Shown: piece after piece, positions 18,851 through 38,383 of the stretch | How positions within the stretch are numbered: the first letter of the stretch is position 1 | How the letters are laid out: the number at the start of each line of letters is the position of its first letter | Assembly: GCF_016744155.1 (NCBI RefSeq) | Contig: NZ_JADGEW010000018.1 | Location: 1-64,000, forward strand | Reading direction: 5' to 3' | Length of the DNA stretch: 64,000 nt | Source: Amphritea sp. | Lineage (GTDB): Bacteria > Pseudomonadota > Gammaproteobacteria > Pseudomonadales > Balneatricaceae | The notes under the pieces: generated by a model | What the model saw: only the letters and a program-made list of their open reading frames with translations | Database searches by the model: none | Told to the model about the DNA's origin: nothing | Translations under genes and position numbers: made by a program

Positions 18851-18939
18851 TCTGACGTTGAACTGACAATATGCTCGGTACAACGCGACTATTAATCCAC
18901 CACATATGTGGTGTGCATATTATTTTTGGAGTTTTAAAA

Positions 18940-19209
18940 ATGGCATTATCTGTAGAAAAGAAAGCTGAGATCGTAGCTGAGTATGCTCGTGGTGAAGGCG
19001 ACACTGGTTCTCCTGAAGTACAAGTTGCTTTGCTGACTAACAACATTGTTGGTTTGCAGTCTCACTTTAAAGGTCACATCCATGACCACCATTCTCGTCG
19101 CGGTCTTATCCGCATGGTAAACCAGCGTCGTAAGCTGCTGGACTACCTGAAGAAGAAAGATGTTACTCGTTACGCTGATCTGATCAAGCGTCTGGGTCTG
19201 CGTCGCTAA
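18940..19209 (+). CDS. rpsO: 30S ribosomal protein S15
   Basis: Primary binder of the central domain of 16S rRNA. The 89 residues from [18 protein letters not shown] to [13 protein letters not shown] match the family in full. ATG 18940 is preceded by GGAG (18928-18931) and is the conserved start; the frame is open further upstream. The leader holds a palindrome CCACCACATATGTGGTG (18898-18914), placed where S15 autoregulatory structures occur in other bacteria. Confidence 0.98.
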
Positions 19210-31390: not shown

Positions 31391-31879
31391 TTAAATTTGC
31401 TCAAGAGTGCCAGTATTACAGCTTTTAAGGTATTCAGGGAGTGTCTTTCCGGCAGGAATACTCAAATTAGGAGCGATTTCAGCCAGAGGGAAGAGTACGA
31501 AATTGCGTTCTTGTAGATAGGGGTGGGGAACGGTCAGTCGATCATTATTGATCAGTTGGTCACCAAAGAGTAGCAGGTCCAGGTCTAGAGTTCGGGGTCC
31601 CCAATGCTGGATTCTGATCCGTTGATGTTGCTGCTCGATCGCCTGCATGGCGTCAAGTAGTTCCAGGGGTTGTAGGGAGGTTTCCAGACTGGCAACTGCA
31701 TTGATGTAATCAGGCTGGCCAGGAGGGCCAACCGGATCGCTGCGATAGAGGCTGGAGTGGATCAGGTTACGACACTGGTCTAAGCGCTCCAGCTCCAGTA
31801 ATGCTGTCGCGACCTGAGTCACCGGGTTTTCCAGATTGCTGCCCAGGCCGATAAAGCATTTGATCCAATGATCAGCCAT
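31391..31879 (-). CDS. folK: 2-amino-4-hydroxy-6-hydroxymethyldihydropteridine pyrophosphokinase
   Basis: Pyrophosphorylates the pterin that FolP (encoded at 8769-9647) then joins to p-aminobenzoate. The 162 residues start MADHWIKCFIGLGSNLENP and contain GPRTLDLDLLLFGD and VPHPYLQERNFVLFPLAEI, the HPPK signature. I chose ATG 31879; the frame continues 25 codons upstream but lies inside pcnB. The start overlaps the pcnB stop by 8 bases, indicating coupling. Confidence 0.95.
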   Translation of the reverse strand: MADHWIKCFIGLGSNLENPVTQVATALLELERLDQCRNLIHSSLYRSDPVGPPGQPDYINAVASLETSLQPLELLDAMQAIEQQHQRIRIQHWGPRTLDLDLLLFGDQLINNDRLTVPHPYLQERNFVLFPLAEIAPNLSIPAGKTLPEYLKSCNTGTLEQI

Positions 31880-33284
31880 TGTTTGATTCTTGCTTTTTAG
31901 GTGGGCCACGGCGTCTGCGGCGGCGCTTAGTTGGCTCGTCTCTGTTGGCTTCACGGGACATGTGGCTACGAATCTGAGGATTCTGTACCTGATAGTCGGT
32001 CCACCACTTGCCTAGCCCGTCCAGCTCTTCACCGCTGCTCTCCCGGAGAATCAGAAGATCGTATGCGGCGCGGAAACGGGGGTGTTCTATCAGTCGATCG
32101 GCGCGCTTGCCTTGTCGGCGAGGTAGGCGGAACTGTAATTCCCAGATCTCTCTGATCGGAGTAGAGAAGCGACGAGGAATGGCGGTTTGACGAATCTGGT
32201 TGCCAATTACATGGTTGGCAGCCTCATGCATCGCCGGAACGGTATGCATACCATCTTCTTCCATCAACTGCTTCATGCGGCGCTGCATCGGATACCAGAG
32301 CAAAGCTGCAAATAGGAATGCCGGAGTAACGCTTTTATCTTGCTGTATCCGGCGGTCAGTATTTTGTAGAGCATTCAATACTAGTTTTTCTACCGGATAG
32401 CCCTCAGGGTTTTTGAGGCTGTCTGCGGTCTGCGCGAGCAGTGGTGCCAAAAGATCATGTTTGCGTAGCTGGTGAAAGGATTCAACGCCATGGCCTGACT
32501 GGAAGATTTTTAGCGCTTCATCAAAGAGCCGGGCAGGGGCGATATCTTTTAATAGATAGCCCAGCTCTTTTAAGGGGGCTTCCGATGCCGGTTCAATAGT
32601 AAAGCCTAACTTTGCTGCAAACCGTGCTGCCCGGAGCATGCGTACAGGATCTTCACGGTAACGGGCGTCCGGGTCGCCTATCATCCGCAGAATGCCATGT
32701 TTCAGATCACTGAAGCCGTTCGTGAAGTCGTAGATGCAATGATCATTAGGGCAATAATAGAGAGCGTTAACAGTGAAGTCGCGACGTAGTGCGTCTTCTT
32801 CTATGGTGCCGTATACGTTGTCCCGGACGATCATGCCGCTGTCATTCTGGCGACCGTGTTCACCGTCGTTGTTCTTCGGTTGACTATCGTGGCTGGCGCG
32901 GAAGGTTGCTACTTCGATCAGATCACGGCCAAAGCGAACATGCAGCAGCTTGAAGCGACGACCAATCAGGCGTGAGCGACGGAACAGAGCATGGGCTTGT
33001 TCGGGGGTTGCGCTAGTGGCAACATCAAAATCTTTTGGATGCTTATTCATCAGCAGATCACGGATACAGCCGCCGACTAGATAGCCTTCGAAGCCTTCAT
33101 CCTGTAGATGATATGCCGTTTTCATCGCTGCGTCGTTTAGGCGTCGACGGGGGATTTGGTGTGTCTCTTCGGGAATGAGCTGGCGTCCTTGTGCCTGCTG
33201 ATTTTCAGCACTCTCAGAACTTTTGCTACTACTACCAAATAGCCGGCGGATAAACGAACCTATAGGTGACGAGTTATTGTCCAT
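31872..33284 (-). CDS. pcnB: Poly(A) polymerase I
   Basis: Adds poly(A) tails that speed up RNA decay. The 470 residues have a variable N-terminal extension (1-50), the nucleotidyltransferase head with GGCIRDLLMNKHPKDFDVATSATPEQ, the RNA-binding DPDARYREDPVRMLRAARFAAKL segment, and a basic C-terminal tail (RRRRRRGPPKK). Only a weak ribosome-binding site is visible before ATG 33284. It lies downstream of the candidate CrcZ-like RNA on the same strand. Confidence 0.96.
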   Translation of the reverse strand: MDNNSSPIGSFIRRLFGSSSKSSESAENQQAQGRQLIPEETHQIPRRRLNDAAMKTAYHLQDEGFEGYLVGGCIRDLLMNKHPKDFDVATSATPEQAHALFRRSRLIGRRFKLLHVRFGRDLIEVATFRASHDSQPKNNDGEHGRQNDSGMIVRDNVYGTIEEDALRRDFTVNALYYCPNDHCIYDFTNGFSDLKHGILRMIGDPDARYREDPVRMLRAARFAAKLGFTIEPASEAPLKELGYLLKDIAPARLFDEALKIFQSGHGVESFHQLRKHDLLAPLLAQTADSLKNPEGYPVEKLVLNALQNTDRRIQQDKSVTPAFLFAALLWYPMQRRMKQLMEEDGMHTVPAMHEAANHVIGNQIRQTAIPRRFSTPIREIWELQFRLPRRQGKRADRLIEHPRFRAAYDLLILRESSGEELDGLGKWWTDYQVQNPQIRSHMSREANRDEPTKRRRRRRGPPKKQESNNG

Positions 33285-33334: not shown

Positions 33335-33632
33335 TTTTACGGAATAACGAAGTAAACGCCGTAAAAGCAGTGATCAATGAGGTAAATGAGGGAATTAGAT
33401 AACAGGTAAAAGGGAATGGATAAGCTGATCGCCTTAGACAACAACGCTAGCCTTAGCTTGTTGTTTTTATTTCTAAGAGCACTATCTCGGGACCGTCGTA
33501 TTTAGGTGTCAATTACGGCGACCAGCTTAAAGCCTCATTATTATTTTTATTCGAGGCAGGTTGCTTATAAGCGAGTAATCTGGGTTTTATTTTTATTATG
33601 ATTACATGCTTTAAGCATTGTTTTTCTTCTTA
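33335..33632 (-). ncRNA. crcZ: Candidate CrcZ-like Hfq/Crc-sequestering small RNA
   Basis: Located between cbrB and pcnB, exactly where Pseudomonas encodes CrcZ. A sigma-54 promoter (33643-33659) predicts a start near 33632. The RNA begins with an A-rich segment, then forms three short-stem hairpins whose 16-19-base loops are A-rich. These are GUAAUC/GAUUAC (33605-33600 with 33580-33575), GCCUC/GAGGC (33557-33553 with 33536-33532; loop GAAUAAAAAUAAUAAU) and CUUAG/CUAAG (33477-33473 with 33456-33452; loop AAAUAAAAACAACAAG). These ARN-type loops are what the Hfq distal face binds. The third can alternatively be masked by AACAAC/GUUGUU pairing. The 3' end is set at hairpin UUUUACGG/CCGUAAAA (33366-33335) and is uncertain. 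Confidence 0.68.
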
Positions 33633-33642
33633 CTTACAATAA

Positions 33643-33659
33643 AGCATAGCTTGTGCCAA
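33643..33659 (-). promoter_or_regulatory. Sigma-54 promoter of the CrcZ-like RNA
   Basis: On the minus strand: TTGGCACAAGCTATGCT, with the invariant GG (33657-33656) and GC (33645-33644) exactly 10 bases apart, as the -24/-12 consensus requires. It is transcribed by RpoN with an enhancer-binding protein, presumably the adjacent CbrB. Confidence 0.82.
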
Positions 33660-33708
33660 CTTTTGTAACTGTTTGATTTAAATTGATTATTTTTGTATTT
33701 ATCTGATT

Positions 33709-33792
33709 TGTTACCTGGGCTTACAATTGAGGGTAACAAAAAGTGTTACCTTTCAACTCATGCTGCATCTGCGTAAAGGTGGATAAGTAACA
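33709..33792 (-). promoter_or_regulatory. Candidate CbrB upstream activating sites
   Basis: Four exact half-sites within 84 bases: TGTTAC at 33709-33714, GTAACA at 33733-33738, TGTTAC at 33744-33749 and GTAACA at 33787-33792. They lie about 50-135 bases upstream of the -24 element, where enhancer-binding proteins bind. TGTTAC/GTAACA palindromes are, as I recall, the proposed CbrB recognition sequence in Pseudomonas. Confidence 0.68.
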
Positions 33793-33827: not shown

Positions 33828-35255
33828 TTATTCGCTAGCCAGTGTTGAGTCTTGCTTCGGCTTTCTTGGGATGCCTAGCTTCTGGCGTCTTTCCCATAAG
33901 CACTTTCGGCTGACGCCCAGTTTTTTTGCCAGAGCTGTCTCGCTCATACTGTCCTGATTTTCCAGTACGAACCGCTGGAAGTAATCATCCAGTGATAGGT
34001 TTTGTTCAGGGCGGCGCTCAGTTCTGTCTCCGGTTGTTTCCGCAACGAGTGAGTTACCATTGGCAAAACTGCTTTCCAGTTCAGCCAATGAGCCAGGTTC
34101 AATATCAAGGCCTAGCAGGTCGGTGGTGATTATGTGGTCTTCGGACAGAATAACAGCACGCTCTATAGCGTTTTGTAGCTCTCTAACGTTACCAGGCCAG
34201 TTGTAGCGGGTCATAGTTTGGCAGGCATCGTTGCTGAATTTCAGTAATTTAGACCCGAGTTTATCGCAACTTTTCTGCAGGAACTGCTGGGCAATTGTGA
34301 TGATATCATCGCCACGTTCGCGTAGCGGAGGCATCTGCAGCTCCATTACATAGAGTCGATAATAGAGATCTTCACGGAACTCACCGGTCTTGGCTAGCGC
34401 TTTAAGGTTGCGGTGGGTTGCGGCGATGAGACGGACATCTACATTGATCGATTTAACGGCGCCGACGCGACGTATTTCGCTCTCTTGCAGAAAGCGTAAC
34501 AGGCGGGCCTGAGCCTCCAGTGGGAGTTCGCCTATCTCATCCAGAAACAGGGTGCCGCCGTGAGCTGCTTCGATTAGTCCGTTACGTGCACTGTCCGCAC
34601 CGGTGAAAGCGCCTTTCTCATGACCAAAGAGCTCCGATTCAATCAGTGATTCCGGAATCGAAGCACAGTTAACCGATACCATGGGTGCATCGGCTCGCGA
34701 GCTTTGTTGGTGAATTGCCCGGGCCGCTAACTCTTTACCGGTGCCAGATTCTCCCTGAATCAAAACAGTGGCATCGGTGCGAGCGACTTTGTGGATGCGG
34801 CTAAACAGGTCTTGCATCGGCTTACAGGTGCCAACCATCTGATTCGCTGAGGCCGCCTTTGATTTGTCAGGACTTGCTTTTGTCTGTTTGCTTTTATCTT
34901 CAGCGCCACGAAGCTTGATAATATTGGCGATGGTTTCCAGCACTTCGTCATGATCAAAGGGCTTGGCTATGTAGTCTACCGCGCCCATTTTCATAGCGTC
35001 GACAGCAGAGCGCATGCTGGCATAGCTGGTCATTATGACAACAGGAACAGCTTTTGCCAGGTTGATCAGGTCCGTGCCTGGTGCACCAGGCAAGCGTAGG
35101 TCGCTGATGATCAGGTTGTAATCATTGAGGTTGAATTGGCTGGTTGCTTCGTCGACAGACCCAGCGTCGTCAACGGAATAGCTATTACGCTCCAGCAAAC
35201 GCCGGAGGGCAGTACGTATAATAGATTCATCTTCTACGATCAGAATGCGGCTCAT
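33828..35255 (-). CDS. cbrB: Sigma-54-dependent response regulator CbrB
   Basis: NtrC-type enhancer-binding protein, 475 residues. It has a receiver domain with phosphoacceptor Asp52 and Lys98 (YIAKPFDHDE), an AAA+ domain with Walker A GESGTGKE and the sigma-54-contacting GAFTGA loop, and a C-terminal Fis-type helix-turn-helix (ETALAKKLGVSRKCLWERRQ). The N-terminus and C-terminus resemble Pseudomonas CbrB, and the gene follows cbrA in the same order. In Pseudomonas CbrB turns on crcZ and carbon/nitrogen utilisation genes; the promoter and half-sites just downstream fit that role. Confidence 0.92.
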   Translation of the reverse strand: MSRILIVEDESIIRTALRRLLERNSYSVDDAGSVDEATSQFNLNDYNLIISDLRLPGAPGTDLINLAKAVPVVIMTSYASMRSAVDAMKMGAVDYIAKPFDHDEVLETIANIIKLRGAEDKSKQTKASPDKSKAASANQMVGTCKPMQDLFSRIHKVARTDATVLIQGESGTGKELAARAIHQQSSRADAPMVSVNCASIPESLIESELFGHEKGAFTGADSARNGLIEAAHGGTLFLDEIGELPLEAQARLLRFLQESEIRRVGAVKSINVDVRLIAATHRNLKALAKTGEFREDLYYRLYVMELQMPPLRERGDDIITIAQQFLQKSCDKLGSKLLKFSNDACQTMTRYNWPGNVRELQNAIERAVILSEDHIITTDLLGLDIEPGSLAELESSFANGNSLVAETTGDRTERRPEQNLSLDDYFQRFVLENQDSMSETALAKKLGVSRKCLWERRQKLGIPRKPKQDSTLASE

Positions 35256-35322: not shown

Positions 35323-38217
35323 TTATTCTTGTAAGCTTTTGGGGAGGGTGATAACCACTTGAGTGCCATTATTCTGATTTTTATTGGCGGGACTCACTAT
35401 GCTTATACTACCATAATGCTCTTCAATGATGTTATATACCAAAGGCAGTCCTAATCCGGTACCTTTCCCGGGGTCTTTAGTGGTGAAAAAAGGTTCAAAC
35501 AGTTTATCCTGATGTTCTTTTACAATACCGCTACCCTCATCGGTGACGGTCACCTCTATCGAACTATTCCTCTCGTGCGCATCCAGCCAGACTGAACTGC
35601 TATCCGGTGACGCGTCACAAGCATTATTGATCAGGTTTACAAATACCTGCAGGAGTCGTTGCGGGTCGCCGCCAACGTTCACTGTGTTATCCATATTGTT
35701 TATTAACTGTATCTGTCGGCCTCTGCTATCCATGGAAACCAGATGGATCGCCTCATCTGTTAGCTCTTTCAGGCTGACATTTTCCTCAAACCGTTGGCCA
35801 TCACTTTGTCCGGTATGGGCAAAGCGGATCAGTGATTGCACGATTCGGGTAATTCGGGCGGTCTGAGCCACGATCTGTTCGCCGCTTTCGAGAATAATTG
35901 GGTCTTCCGTTTCGTACTTTAGGTTCTGAGCTAGACAAGCGATACCGGTGACAGGGTTGCCTATTTCGTGGGCAACACCCGCCGCAAAACGGCCGATGGA
36001 TGCTAGCCGTTCATTGTGAGAAAGCCGGTTTACCAAAATCTGGTTCTCGGTTTCGTTCTCAAGCAGTATCACCATCGCGTCTGTATCATCAGCCAGGCTG
36101 GCTTTATGCAAGCTAAGCCAGCAATTTTCGCCATTAATCAGCATGTGGTGAGAGAGCAGGTGGTTCTGATTCAGGGCGGAAAAATTGAACAGAAGCTCTC
36201 CCCAGGGATCGGCAATGTTAACCAGTTTCTTGGTTAGTACTGATGAGGTACTTAATCCAGTGAAATGCTCCATTTCTGCGTTCCAGAAGATAATCTGCCC
36301 TTTTTCGTCTAGTGAGCAGGCGCCGATGGGGAGTCGTTGCAGAGTCATGCGGTGGTGGCGGCGCAAATTATCCAGTTCAGCTGCTAATCCGCTGAGCTGA
36401 GTCTGATAGTTTTCCAGTTGACCTTCCAGCAGGTGGATATCCTGAGTGCGGTATTGGTCGAGCGTATTTTTTTCTGTTTTCTGGTAAAGCAGGCTGCTGG
36501 CGCCAACCGGCCCGAACAGGGCGCTGAGACGACTTTCGATCAGTGTGTTGAGGCGCATTAGATCGATTGCGTCCAGCTCCTTGTTAGTGAGCTTAAGCTC
36601 TTTTAGGGCGTTATCTATTTCCCGTTGAGCGGTCTCTTTGCCTAATTGATTGCTGAGCAGTTCAACTAATTCATCGCTATTGCTGATATCTAACTGAGGG
36701 CTAATCGGACGCTGAATACTGTTATGCAAGCAGGCACTGGCGCTGGCTGTTTCTTCCTTGGAACTCTTGGTGATGAGTGAGGCTAACAGGAAAATAGTGA
36801 TGTTTGCGGCCAACGCGTAGATCGCAATCTGGTGCCAGTCCTGTTGAATCAGCAGTGCTGTGTCTGTACCGGTGAGTAAGCCCAGTAACATGGTAATAAT
36901 CCAGGTGCCCATGCCAGCAATTAGTCCCAGGCAGAAGCCTGTGCGGTTGGCTCCGGGCCAGAAGAGAGTTGCCAGTATACCGGGTAGGAATTGCATAAAG
37001 GCGATGAATGCCAGTGTGCCCAGCCATTGCAGATTAAAATTCAGGCCAATTTTGCTATAGAACAGATAGCTGAATAGCATCATCACGATGATCAGTGATC
37101 GCCTTAGCCATAGTAGTCGCGAATATAATTCATGGGTCGCAATTGGTGGGATCAAGGGTAAAACGATATGGTTCTGCAGCATTGAAGTGATTGAAATAGT
37201 CGCAACGATAATGATACCGCTAGCCGCGGCCAGGCCTCCGATAAAGGCCAGAATCGTCAGAAAATTAGAGTCCAGCGCTATGCCCATATTGAGAATAAGA
37301 AAGGCGGGATGATCGCCAACGCCGAGTTTTATGCCTGCCCAGAGGATGGGGGGGACGGCCAGCGCCAACAGTAGCAAGTAGAGTGGGATACCCCAGCTGG
37401 CTTTATGCAAACTGTTGGATGAGGTGTTTTCAGTAAACATCATGTGAAAAGTATGGGGCATCACGATAATTGCAGAGAAAAATCCCAGTAACATGGTTCG
37501 CCACATGTCGCTGTCCAGCGGGGTGTTGAAGACTTCGACCTCCTCTGGGTGTTGCTGCAGCCAAAGGTCGAGCCCGCCGGGTCCGCCCATAACACCGTAT
37601 AACGCATAGAGAGCTATTGTGCCAATAGCGATCAGTTTGATCAGTGATCCGGTCGCCATCGCAACAATTAAGCCGGTGCGGTTATAGCGCAGTGAGGGGT
37701 TGCGGGCGCCGAACAGGATCGAAAAGAGAGCGATCAGCGTACAAAAGCCGATGGCGACCTGATCGGAAGAGAAGTCCTGGTTAAGAATATGTAGTGAATC
37801 AGTTACAGCGTGAATCTGTATGGAGATCAGGGGCAGTATTGCCAGTAATGAGAAGATTGCTGTCAGGGTTCCTGCGGTCGCGGAGCGAAAACGGAACGCA
37901 AACAGATCTGCAAGGGAGCTGAGCTGATAGGTTCGGGTTATTCTGAGAATCGGTACTAATATCACAGGCGCCAGGAAAAAAGCCGCTGATCCGCCCAAAT
38001 AGGAAGCTAGAAAACTATAACCAGACGCTTTGGCCAGTTCAAAAGTGCCATAAAAAGTCCAGACACTGGTGAACACTCCCAGTGACAGAATATAGGTGAT
38101 CGGGTGGTAGATAACGCGGGCGGGAATCCAGCCCCGTTCAGTAATGTATGCGGTTCCAAACAGAAAAGTCAGGTAAGTAATCGCGATGAACAGTAGTTCG
38201 GTCAGATTAAAACTCAT
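35323..38217 (-). CDS. cbrA: Sensor histidine kinase CbrA with SLC5-like transporter domain
   Basis: 964 residues. The N-terminal ~480 form a multi-spanning sodium/solute-symporter-like domain (about 13 hydrophobic segments). It is followed by a linker region, a PAS domain (around LQRLPIGACSLDEKGQIIFWN) and a kinase core with phospho-accepting His750 in AHEIGNPV. The N box is near 860, and the G boxes are DEGSG and GTGLGLPL. The PutP-like transporter fused to a kinase is the CbrA hallmark; in Pseudomonas it has been linked to histidine uptake. The stop lies 67 bases before cbrB. The start overlaps the cbrX-like ORF by 11 bases. Confidence 0.92.
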   Translation of the reverse strand: MSFNLTELLFIAITYLTFLFGTAYITERGWIPARVIYHPITYILSLGVFTSVWTFYGTFELAKASGYSFLASYLGGSAAFFLAPVILVPILRITRTYQLSSLADLFAFRFRSATAGTLTAIFSLLAILPLISIQIHAVTDSLHILNQDFSSDQVAIGFCTLIALFSILFGARNPSLRYNRTGLIVAMATGSLIKLIAIGTIALYALYGVMGGPGGLDLWLQQHPEEVEVFNTPLDSDMWRTMLLGFFSAIIVMPHTFHMMFTENTSSNSLHKASWGIPLYLLLLALAVPPILWAGIKLGVGDHPAFLILNMGIALDSNFLTILAFIGGLAAASGIIIVATISITSMLQNHIVLPLIPPIATHELYSRLLWLRRSLIIVMMLFSYLFYSKIGLNFNLQWLGTLAFIAFMQFLPGILATLFWPGANRTGFCLGLIAGMGTWIITMLLGLLTGTDTALLIQQDWHQIAIYALAANITIFLLASLITKSSKEETASASACLHNSIQRPISPQLDISNSDELVELLSNQLGKETAQREIDNALKELKLTNKELDAIDLMRLNTLIESRLSALFGPVGASSLLYQKTEKNTLDQYRTQDIHLLEGQLENYQTQLSGLAAELDNLRRHHRMTLQRLPIGACSLDEKGQIIFWNAEMEHFTGLSTSSVLTKKLVNIADPWGELLFNFSALNQNHLLSHHMLINGENCWLSLHKASLADDTDAMVILLENETENQILVNRLSHNERLASIGRFAAGVAHEIGNPVTGIACLAQNLKYETEDPIILESGEQIVAQTARITRIVQSLIRFAHTGQSDGQRFEENVSLKELTDEAIHLVSMDSRGRQIQLINNMDNTVNVGGDPQRLLQVFVNLINNACDASPDSSSVWLDAHERNSSIEVTVTDEGSGIVKEHQDKLFEPFFTTKDPGKGTGLGLPLVYNIIEEHYGSISIVSPANKNQNNGTQVVITLPKSLQE

Positions 38218-38383
38218 CTTGACGCCGTCTCCGTTCTAGAATTGCTACCATCAGGATGAGTGCAGCCCAGATAATGAAAGGCCGATACCAGGGGGTTGCT
38301 GCGTCGGGCCACCATTGATCCAGAATCGGGGATAGCAGGTACCCACCGATTACCAGAACGATTAAAAGGCGGTAGAAATGCAT
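38207..38383 (-). CDS. cbrX: CbrX-like small membrane protein
   Basis: 58 residues with two hydrophobic segments (about 4-22 and 34-49) and a basic RRRRQDEF end. ATG 38383 has an excellent GGAGGA site 6 bases upstream. The gluQ stop and this start share one base (TAATG), and this ORF's end overlaps the cbrA start by 11 bases, so all three are probably translationally coupled. Pseudomonas has a comparable small ORF, cbrX, translationally coupled to cbrA. Function unknown. Confidence 0.8.
   Translation of the reverse strand: MHFYRLLIVLVIGGYLLSPILDQWWPDAATPWYRPFIIWAALILMVAILERRRRQDEF

Follow-up and report, generated by a model that had tools for sequence, protein, structure and literature searches.

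The 543 nt that separate cbrB from pcnB in Amphritea sp., a genus placed in Oceanospirillaceae by NCBI taxonomy, raise the question of whether this gap encodes an RNA of the kind found at the same site in Pseudomonas. The CrcZ RNA of P. aeruginosa is described as titrating Hfq via its distal face (PMC4063720), and the CbrAB system is called exclusive to Pseudomonadaceae in the texts consulted (PMC8871633; PMC6296734). We noticed no report of CrcZ or CbrAB outside that family among the titles and abstract openings on which this judgement is based. The locus was analysed within a window of 64,000 nt, which is the whole stretch of DNA under study. An earlier note had placed a CrcZ-like RNA between cbrB and pcnB, extending over 33335..33632, preceded by a sigma-54 promoter and carrying an A-rich 5′ end and three A-rich loops. 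All of these elements are present in the gap. The predicted start near 33632 is retained, whereas conserved structure reaches only to about 33422, not to 33335.

The genes on the minus strand occur in the order gluQ-like ORF, cbrX-like ORF, cbrA, cbrB, the 543-nt gap and pcnB (Table 1), where gluQ and cbrX were named by eye. P. putida CbrX is described as overlapping cbrA (PMC6591292), as the cbrX-like ORF does here. The product of cbrA matches PDB 10ed with 571 bits (E 3.8e-170), an entry described as the SLC5-STAC structure of Pseudomonas CbrXA (PMC13022988), and its kinase end shares 51% identity over 272 residues with the cbrA product of a Pseudomonas locus (L019). CbrB is 63% identical to the cbrB product of the same locus. 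Because no NCBIfam model exceeded its cut-off for either protein, the names CbrA and CbrB rest on the PDB match, the identity to the Pseudomonas locus and the gene order. The pcnB gene of the window is 79-100% identical (best segment) to those of the 12 Amphritea-labelled loci found.

As is characteristic of the CrcZ-type class, the candidate RNA gene lies directly downstream of cbrB and is preceded by a putative sigma-54 promoter and CbrB subsites, both recognized by sequence only. The half-sites TGTTAC and GTAACA, which correspond to the CbrB subsite sequences as given in PMC6296734, are located at -160, -117, -106 and -82. A strict IHF consensus was matched in one of the 17 rows listed, that of the window alone, and so conservation of the site is not supported. 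The RNA start predicted from the promoter, at about 33632, falls one base ahead of the first A-rich block.

Table 1. Features of the cbrB-pcnB locus, in window positions
Feature	Positions	Strand	Basis
cbrX-like membrane peptide ORF, overlaps cbrA start	38207..38383	-	ORF list; peptide not aligned to CbrX
cbrA, SLC5-STAC-PAS-histidine kinase	35323..38217	-	PDB 10ed match; PAS, HisKA, HATPase_c domains
cbrB, sigma-54-activating response regulator	33828..35255	-	Response_reg and Sigma54_activat domains
Four CbrB-type subsites: TGTTAC 33792-33787, GTAACA 33749-33744, TGTTAC 33738-33733, GTAACA 33714-33709	33709..33792	-	sequence match
IHF-consensus-like site AATCAAACAGTTA, between subsites and promoter	33666..33678	-	strict pattern
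Putative sigma-54 promoter TGGCACAAGCTATGC, GG-N10-GC	33644..33658	-	sequence match
Conserved structured RNA (CrcZ-type), predicted start at 33632	33422..33632	-	covariance models R1, R2; MFE z -4.69
A-rich block 1, unpaired 5′ end	33618..33631	-	mean unpaired 0.95
Hairpin 1, loop is A-rich block 2 (33597-33587)	33562..33617	-	fold; helices 1-3 83.5-87.2% of cells paired
Hairpin 2, GCCTC/GAGGC, loop is A-rich block 3 (33551-33538)	33532..33557	-	helix 4 100% of cells paired, 30 sequences
3′ domain with closing helix AAGCUGGUCGCC/GGCGAUCAGCUU; block 4 (33471-33458) can form the loop of its inner hairpin CUUAG/CUAAG	33422..33530	-	helix 5 94.7%, helix 8 89.1% of cells paired
GUUGUUGU, can pair with block 4 (mask) or upstream ACGAC (33499-33495)	33438..33445	-	predicted folds
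pcnB, poly(A) polymerase	31872..33284	-	TIGR01942 521 bits (cut-off 306); Pfam PolyA_pol domains

From this predicted start, four A-rich blocks follow on the minus strand in AAN phase, each of which is an (ARN)n run with n of 4 or more. The motif AANAANAA is matched 11 times in the region against a shuffle mean of 1.3, and 0 of 2000 dinucleotide shuffles reached 11 (the highest reached 10). Similarly, AANAAYAA is matched six times where 0.42 is expected, a count attained by 0 of 2000 shuffles. No denser site for AANAANAA exists in the 64-kb window, and the next unrelated place holds three matches. Near the 54 ORF starts of the window we found two motifs against 0.68 expected, and no target was identified. 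The suggestion that the motifs are of an AAU/AAA rather than a CA type holds in part. The free base of AAN runs in the Amphritea group is T in 33%, A in 29%, C in 23% and G in 14% of cases (12 of 14 loci, two being missed by the finder), whereas in the Pseudomonas-like group C accounts for 50% (11 of 12 loci, one missed). Against the suggestion, block 4 contains a classic AACAACAA, and the region retains six AANAAYAA matches.

The segment 33406-33632 is predicted to fold more stably than its shuffled counterparts (z -4.69, 0 of 200), and inclusion of the remainder of the gap reduces z to -2.56 (1 of 100 shuffles). The closing helix of the 3′ domain reads AAGCUGRUCGC/GCGRUCAGCUU. In an alignment of 30 sequences, 91.3% of cells pair, two-sided changes occur in 45 of 47 pairs, and sliding the partner by 1-3 columns lowers pairing to 24.5-40.1%; as the structure guided this alignment, these values are biased in its favour. 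MAFFT alignments that were not fitted to the structure hold compensatory changes in 10 of 45 pairs for the Amphritea group (13 sequences) and in 14 of 34 pairs for the Nitrincola group (seven sequences). Blocks 1 to 3 are predicted by partition-function folds to be 0.73-1.00 unpaired in 30 of 30 sequences, for which whole-RNA means are 0.44-0.59, and the unpaired fraction of block 4 ranges from 0.30 to 0.99. Several accessible (ARN)n runs with n ≥ 4, another characteristic of the CrcZ-type class, are thus predicted for the window, where blocks 1 to 3 are 0.93-1.0 unpaired (1.0 for block 2 and 0.93 for block 3) and block 4 only 0.52.

Block 4 is also where the earlier note had proposed that one motif can be masked by pairing with GUUGUU, a pairing that could tune activity. 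In the window, GUUGUUGU is indeed predicted to pair with this block, and masking by UUGUUGU is predicted to dominate in eight of 30 sequences, including that of the window. In 14 of the 30 the segment is predicted to pair mainly upstream, and no UUGU follows the block in the remaining eight, so that masking may or may not tune activity. With regard to covariation of the UUGUU segment, fully paired rows number 13 of 27 for the masked form and 16 of 23 for the open form. Because both pairings are supported by rows and block 4 itself hardly varies, covariation does not choose between them.

One alternative is that the gap holds merely chance A-rich, AT-biased DNA with an accidental match to a sigma-54 promoter. 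Among the 27 pcnB loci taken from named genomes, a cbrB match is present in 23, and TGG[CT]-N8-TGC occurs within 800 bases before the pcnB match in 22 of these 23; the 23rd, from Reinekea (L018), has a GG-N10-GC that ends in CGC, together with A-rich blocks. The promoter and all four blocks recur at matching offsets in the window and in 20 of the 20 loci of the Amphritea, Aliamphritea and Nitrincola group printed, with blocks starting 27-28, 57-62, 98-108 and 161-189 from the promoter. One additional short A-rich block is present in one locus (L017). A covariance model built from 10 Amphritea-group sequences (R1) finds seven Nitrincola-group loci absent from its training, at E 1e-20 to 1e-11. 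In the order as a whole it matches 18 of the 390 genomes sampled, including 16 of the 18 from the family of the window. A refined model of 30 sequences (R2) matches 32 of the 390 genomes and 17 of the 18 from the family, where the seventeenth (G103) is a weak match of 33 bits with a longer RNA and only G131 is without a match. A second copy was not found in the genome of the window at E 10. The region is indeed A-rich, as the chance reading would have it, but the 0 of 2000 shuffles, the covariation and the matches in 17 of 18 family genomes all count against that reading, which is already refuted by the conservation results and retains virtually no probability. The earlier note had named, as one result that would refute it, a lack of conservation of the promoter and A-rich loops in relatives with the same gene order; in such relatives these features proved to be conserved. 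We conclude from these comparisons that the gap between cbrB and pcnB encodes a conserved small RNA with four predicted A-rich arms.

A different reading of the same arrangement is that the RNA forms a long, regulated 5′ leader of pcnB, in which transcription from the sigma-54 promoter continues into pcnB, whose translation or stability would be under the control of the A-rich arms. Consistent with this, pcnB lies downstream in 19 of the 19 R1-matched loci examined (cbrB is in view in 17 of the 19), no terminator of the kind scanned for was found on the RNA strand at the locus, and a cbrB-crcZ co-transcript is described in A. vinelandii (PMC6292655), so that read-through occurs in a relative. 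Yet the spacing between the conserved RNA and pcnB is variable in both length and sequence, and an extended -10-like element, TGCTATTAT, a candidate promoter element, stands just before pcnB in nine of 14 Amphritea-group sequences. Moreover, two to four sigma-54/A-rich units, which a leader would not need, are stacked before pcnB by pattern in certain genomes: four in G314 (L070), three in G259 (L069) and two in G037 (L041/L058). We therefore consider the leader unlikely. Past the last helix, window positions 33335-33421 are pyrimidine-rich, G-poor and variable, and would suit Rho-dependent termination.

Within the 3′ domain, CGGTCCCGA (window 33495-33487) shows no variation among the 13 Amphritea-group sequences of alignment A1. 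As it is superfluous to a decoy, it would fit an RNA that acts mainly by base pairing, or as a sponge for a protein of the RsmA/CsrA type, with the A-rich blocks merely recruiting Hfq; RsmA and RsmN are stated to bind P. aeruginosa CrcZ in a review (PMC8871633). In contrast, the feature common to the window and the 20 loci is the set of A-rich blocks in AAN register, and CGGTCCCGA is missing in the seven Nitrincola-group sequences among those loci. This makes a pairing RNA or other sponge very unlikely.

An RNA that acts on Hfq and Crc requires these partners in the same genome. Over 77 residues the Hfq of this genome (L039 1483-1716) and that of P. aeruginosa are near-identical (141 bits), with F25 here in place of Y25, a tyrosine described as lining the purine site (PMC6422490), which belongs to the distal face. 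A Crc homologue is encoded between RNase PH-like (rph) and PyrE-like (pyrE) ORFs, both named by eye. It has 118 identical residues over 254 and 262 bits to P. aeruginosa Crc, compared with 201 bits to the best non-Crc entry, an exonuclease; in NCBIfam it exceeds the cut-off for exodeoxyribonuclease III (TIGR00633, 208 bits). Six basic residues of the Crc RNA-binding patch, at 77, 135 and 138-141, are kept (6/6 identical). These residues are described as contacting ARN RNA, with position 138 printed once as K where the sequence has R (PMC9890229), and ARN-bound Hfq is described as recruiting Crc (PMC9890229; PMC6422490). The genome thus encodes Hfq and Crc with the RNA-contacting residues of the CrcZ-type class, with the single change of Hfq Y25 to F. 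The RpoN DNA-binding domain was found in all four genomes searched. Crc is present in 18 of 18 family genomes, and since these include G131, which is without the RNA, Crc alone does not track the RNA.

Because the locus shares its gene order, type of promoter, motifs and partner proteins with P. aeruginosa, the same mechanism is most likely. It is very probable that this is the CrcZ-type RNA of the Amphritea/Nitrincola family, a decoy for Hfq/Crc driven by CbrB and sigma-54. The sequence itself establishes the order of the genes, the motifs of a promoter with activator sites, a conserved structure and the occurrence of CbrA, CbrB, Hfq, Crc and RpoN, from which we infer transcription, Hfq/Crc binding and relief of repression. 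When carbon supply is poor, CbrA would activate CbrB, which would bind the upstream TGTTAC/GTAACA sites and promote sigma-54 transcription from about 33632. The RNA would then expose up to four single-stranded (ARN)n blocks, one at the 5′ end and three in loops, each of which could bind one Hfq hexamer at its distal face, capped by Crc. In this way the RNA would draw Hfq/Crc away from catabolic mRNAs, and repression would be lifted. Points against the decoy are the failure of the Rfam CrcZ model, the NCBIfam label of Crc and the lack of an NCBIfam model over cut-off for CbrA and CbrB, the lack of a clear terminator, F25 of Hfq, the near-chance motif count at the 54 ORF starts, an RNA in a genome without CbrAB (G382, below), and the presence of Crc in G131.

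To see how far this arrangement extends, we considered 390 sampled genomes of the order. CbrB was found at E 1e-115 or better in 315 of them, representing 118 of 143 genera. Among the best-scoring 29 CbrB loci other than that of the window, 28 have a sigma-54 motif followed by at least three AANAANAA ahead of pcnB or, in the two where pcnB is out of view, ahead of the end of the sequence in view. In the remaining locus (L108) the promoter motif is a GG-N10-GT variant, and A-rich stretches are present. Twenty further regions were all chosen by an RNA-model match there, and in 11 of them cbrB, the sigma-54/A-rich unit and pcnB stand in this order. Of the other nine, three have the unit ahead of pcnB with cbrB out of view, one has it after cbrB with no match to pcnB, two have it with neither gene, and three (G382 among them) show no unit by pattern. 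Loci with all three elements come from at least 10 family codes (f1, f2, f21 and f24 from the best-scoring CbrB loci, and f20, f31, f35, f38, f40 and f44 from the model-matched regions). In a third set, 28 genomes were searched for pcnB and four were dropped (one with no pcnB match and three with too little upstream DNA). A dense A-rich cluster, defined as nine or more in 230 nt, was present in six of eight genomes with CbrB (not G008 or G042), in two of 12 with no cbrB and 1200 nt in view (G382 and G036), and in none of four with a cbrB-like gene below the cut-off. In G036 (L126), where no CbrB reaches the cut-off and no cbrB is near pcnB, pcnB is still preceded by a sigma-54 site together with a dense A-rich cluster. 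Taken together, these patterns suggest that a switch of the CbrAB-CrcZ type, although described as confined to the Pseudomonas family, is widespread across the order to which that family belongs. Carbon control through Hfq/Crc would then be general among many marine bacteria. Transcripts of cbrA and cbrB are recorded in a metatranscriptome of mesopelagic water, with hosts unnamed in the text consulted (PMC5073097).

Two genomes of the family lack the sensor system by the tests applied. In G131 no CbrB reaches the cut-off, CbrA has no full-length match and the RNA is without a match, and a gluQ-like gene abuts pcnB. By the same tests G382 has no CbrAB, yet it keeps the RNA (94.9 bits), flanked by a gluQ-like gene and pcnB. 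Upstream of this RNA (L073 4608-4995) no GG-N10-GC was found; instead there is a sigma-70-like TTGAAT-N17-TATAGT, a type of match of which chance alone would give 0.8 over the same stretch. Should this interpretation of G382 be true, a decoy can outlive its sensor.

With a confidence slightly below even, we propose that CbrAB-CrcZ is ancestral to the whole order rather than having arisen in Pseudomonas, and that the RNA was rebuilt on different scaffolds in separate families, around spaced, open (ARN)n docking posts for Hfq/Crc. In the Amphritea group GUUGUU would close one post, giving a three- versus four-site decoy, and in G382 the RNA would have been rewired from CbrB/sigma-54 to a sigma-70-type promoter, uncoupling decoy from sensor. 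The tandem units, the promoter swap and the loss of the whole block would serve as natural experiments on the number of Hfq docking sites that a decoy RNA needs.

The RNA is not recognized by the standard RNA library, and we rejected the candidate assignment to the Rfam CrcZ family by sequence. The covariance search with Rfam CrcZ that the earlier note had proposed did not bear out a match: the score of RF01675 on the 543-nt gap is 14.3 bits (E 0.12), where 95 bits are required, and searches at both gathering and permissive thresholds gave no CrcZ match over this cut-off. Across the order, the Rfam model matches 71 of 390 genomes at E 0.001 and exceeds its cut-off in 19; all 18 family genomes are absent from both sets. 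The ribosomal S15 leader (Rfam RF00114) was found elsewhere in the window, at 18892-18996, with 62 bits. The models given here supply what annotation lacks. By position and design the Amphritea RNA is the predicted counterpart of CrcZ, with a compact fold of its own, and our comparisons support its interpretation as a diverged CrcZ. The RNA shares with Pseudomonas CrcZ (RF01675) a site after cbrB and before pcnB, a GG-N10-GC promoter, TGTTAC/GTAACA sites, an A-rich 5′ end, several (ARN)n blocks, and Crc and Hfq in the genome. It differs in having about 220 nt and four blocks, whereas CrcZ of P. aeruginosa is described as having 407 nt and six (ARN)n repeats with n ≥ 4 (PMC4063720). Its blocks are also placed by a covarying hairpin scheme, and their free position is richer in U/A and poorer in C. 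The CrcY and CrcX RNAs of Pseudomonadaceae are extra CbrB-driven decoy copies, whereas only one copy was found in the genome of the window; unlike CrcY and CrcX, the extra units that we observed (in G037, and in G259 and G314 of another family) lie in tandem within the same gap. The sponge RNAs CsrB and RsmZ carry many protein-binding motifs in exposed loops and titrate a global repressor. Their logic is the same as that proposed for the Amphritea RNA, but protein and motif differ, with CsrA and GGA in the one case and Hfq/Crc and ARN in the other.
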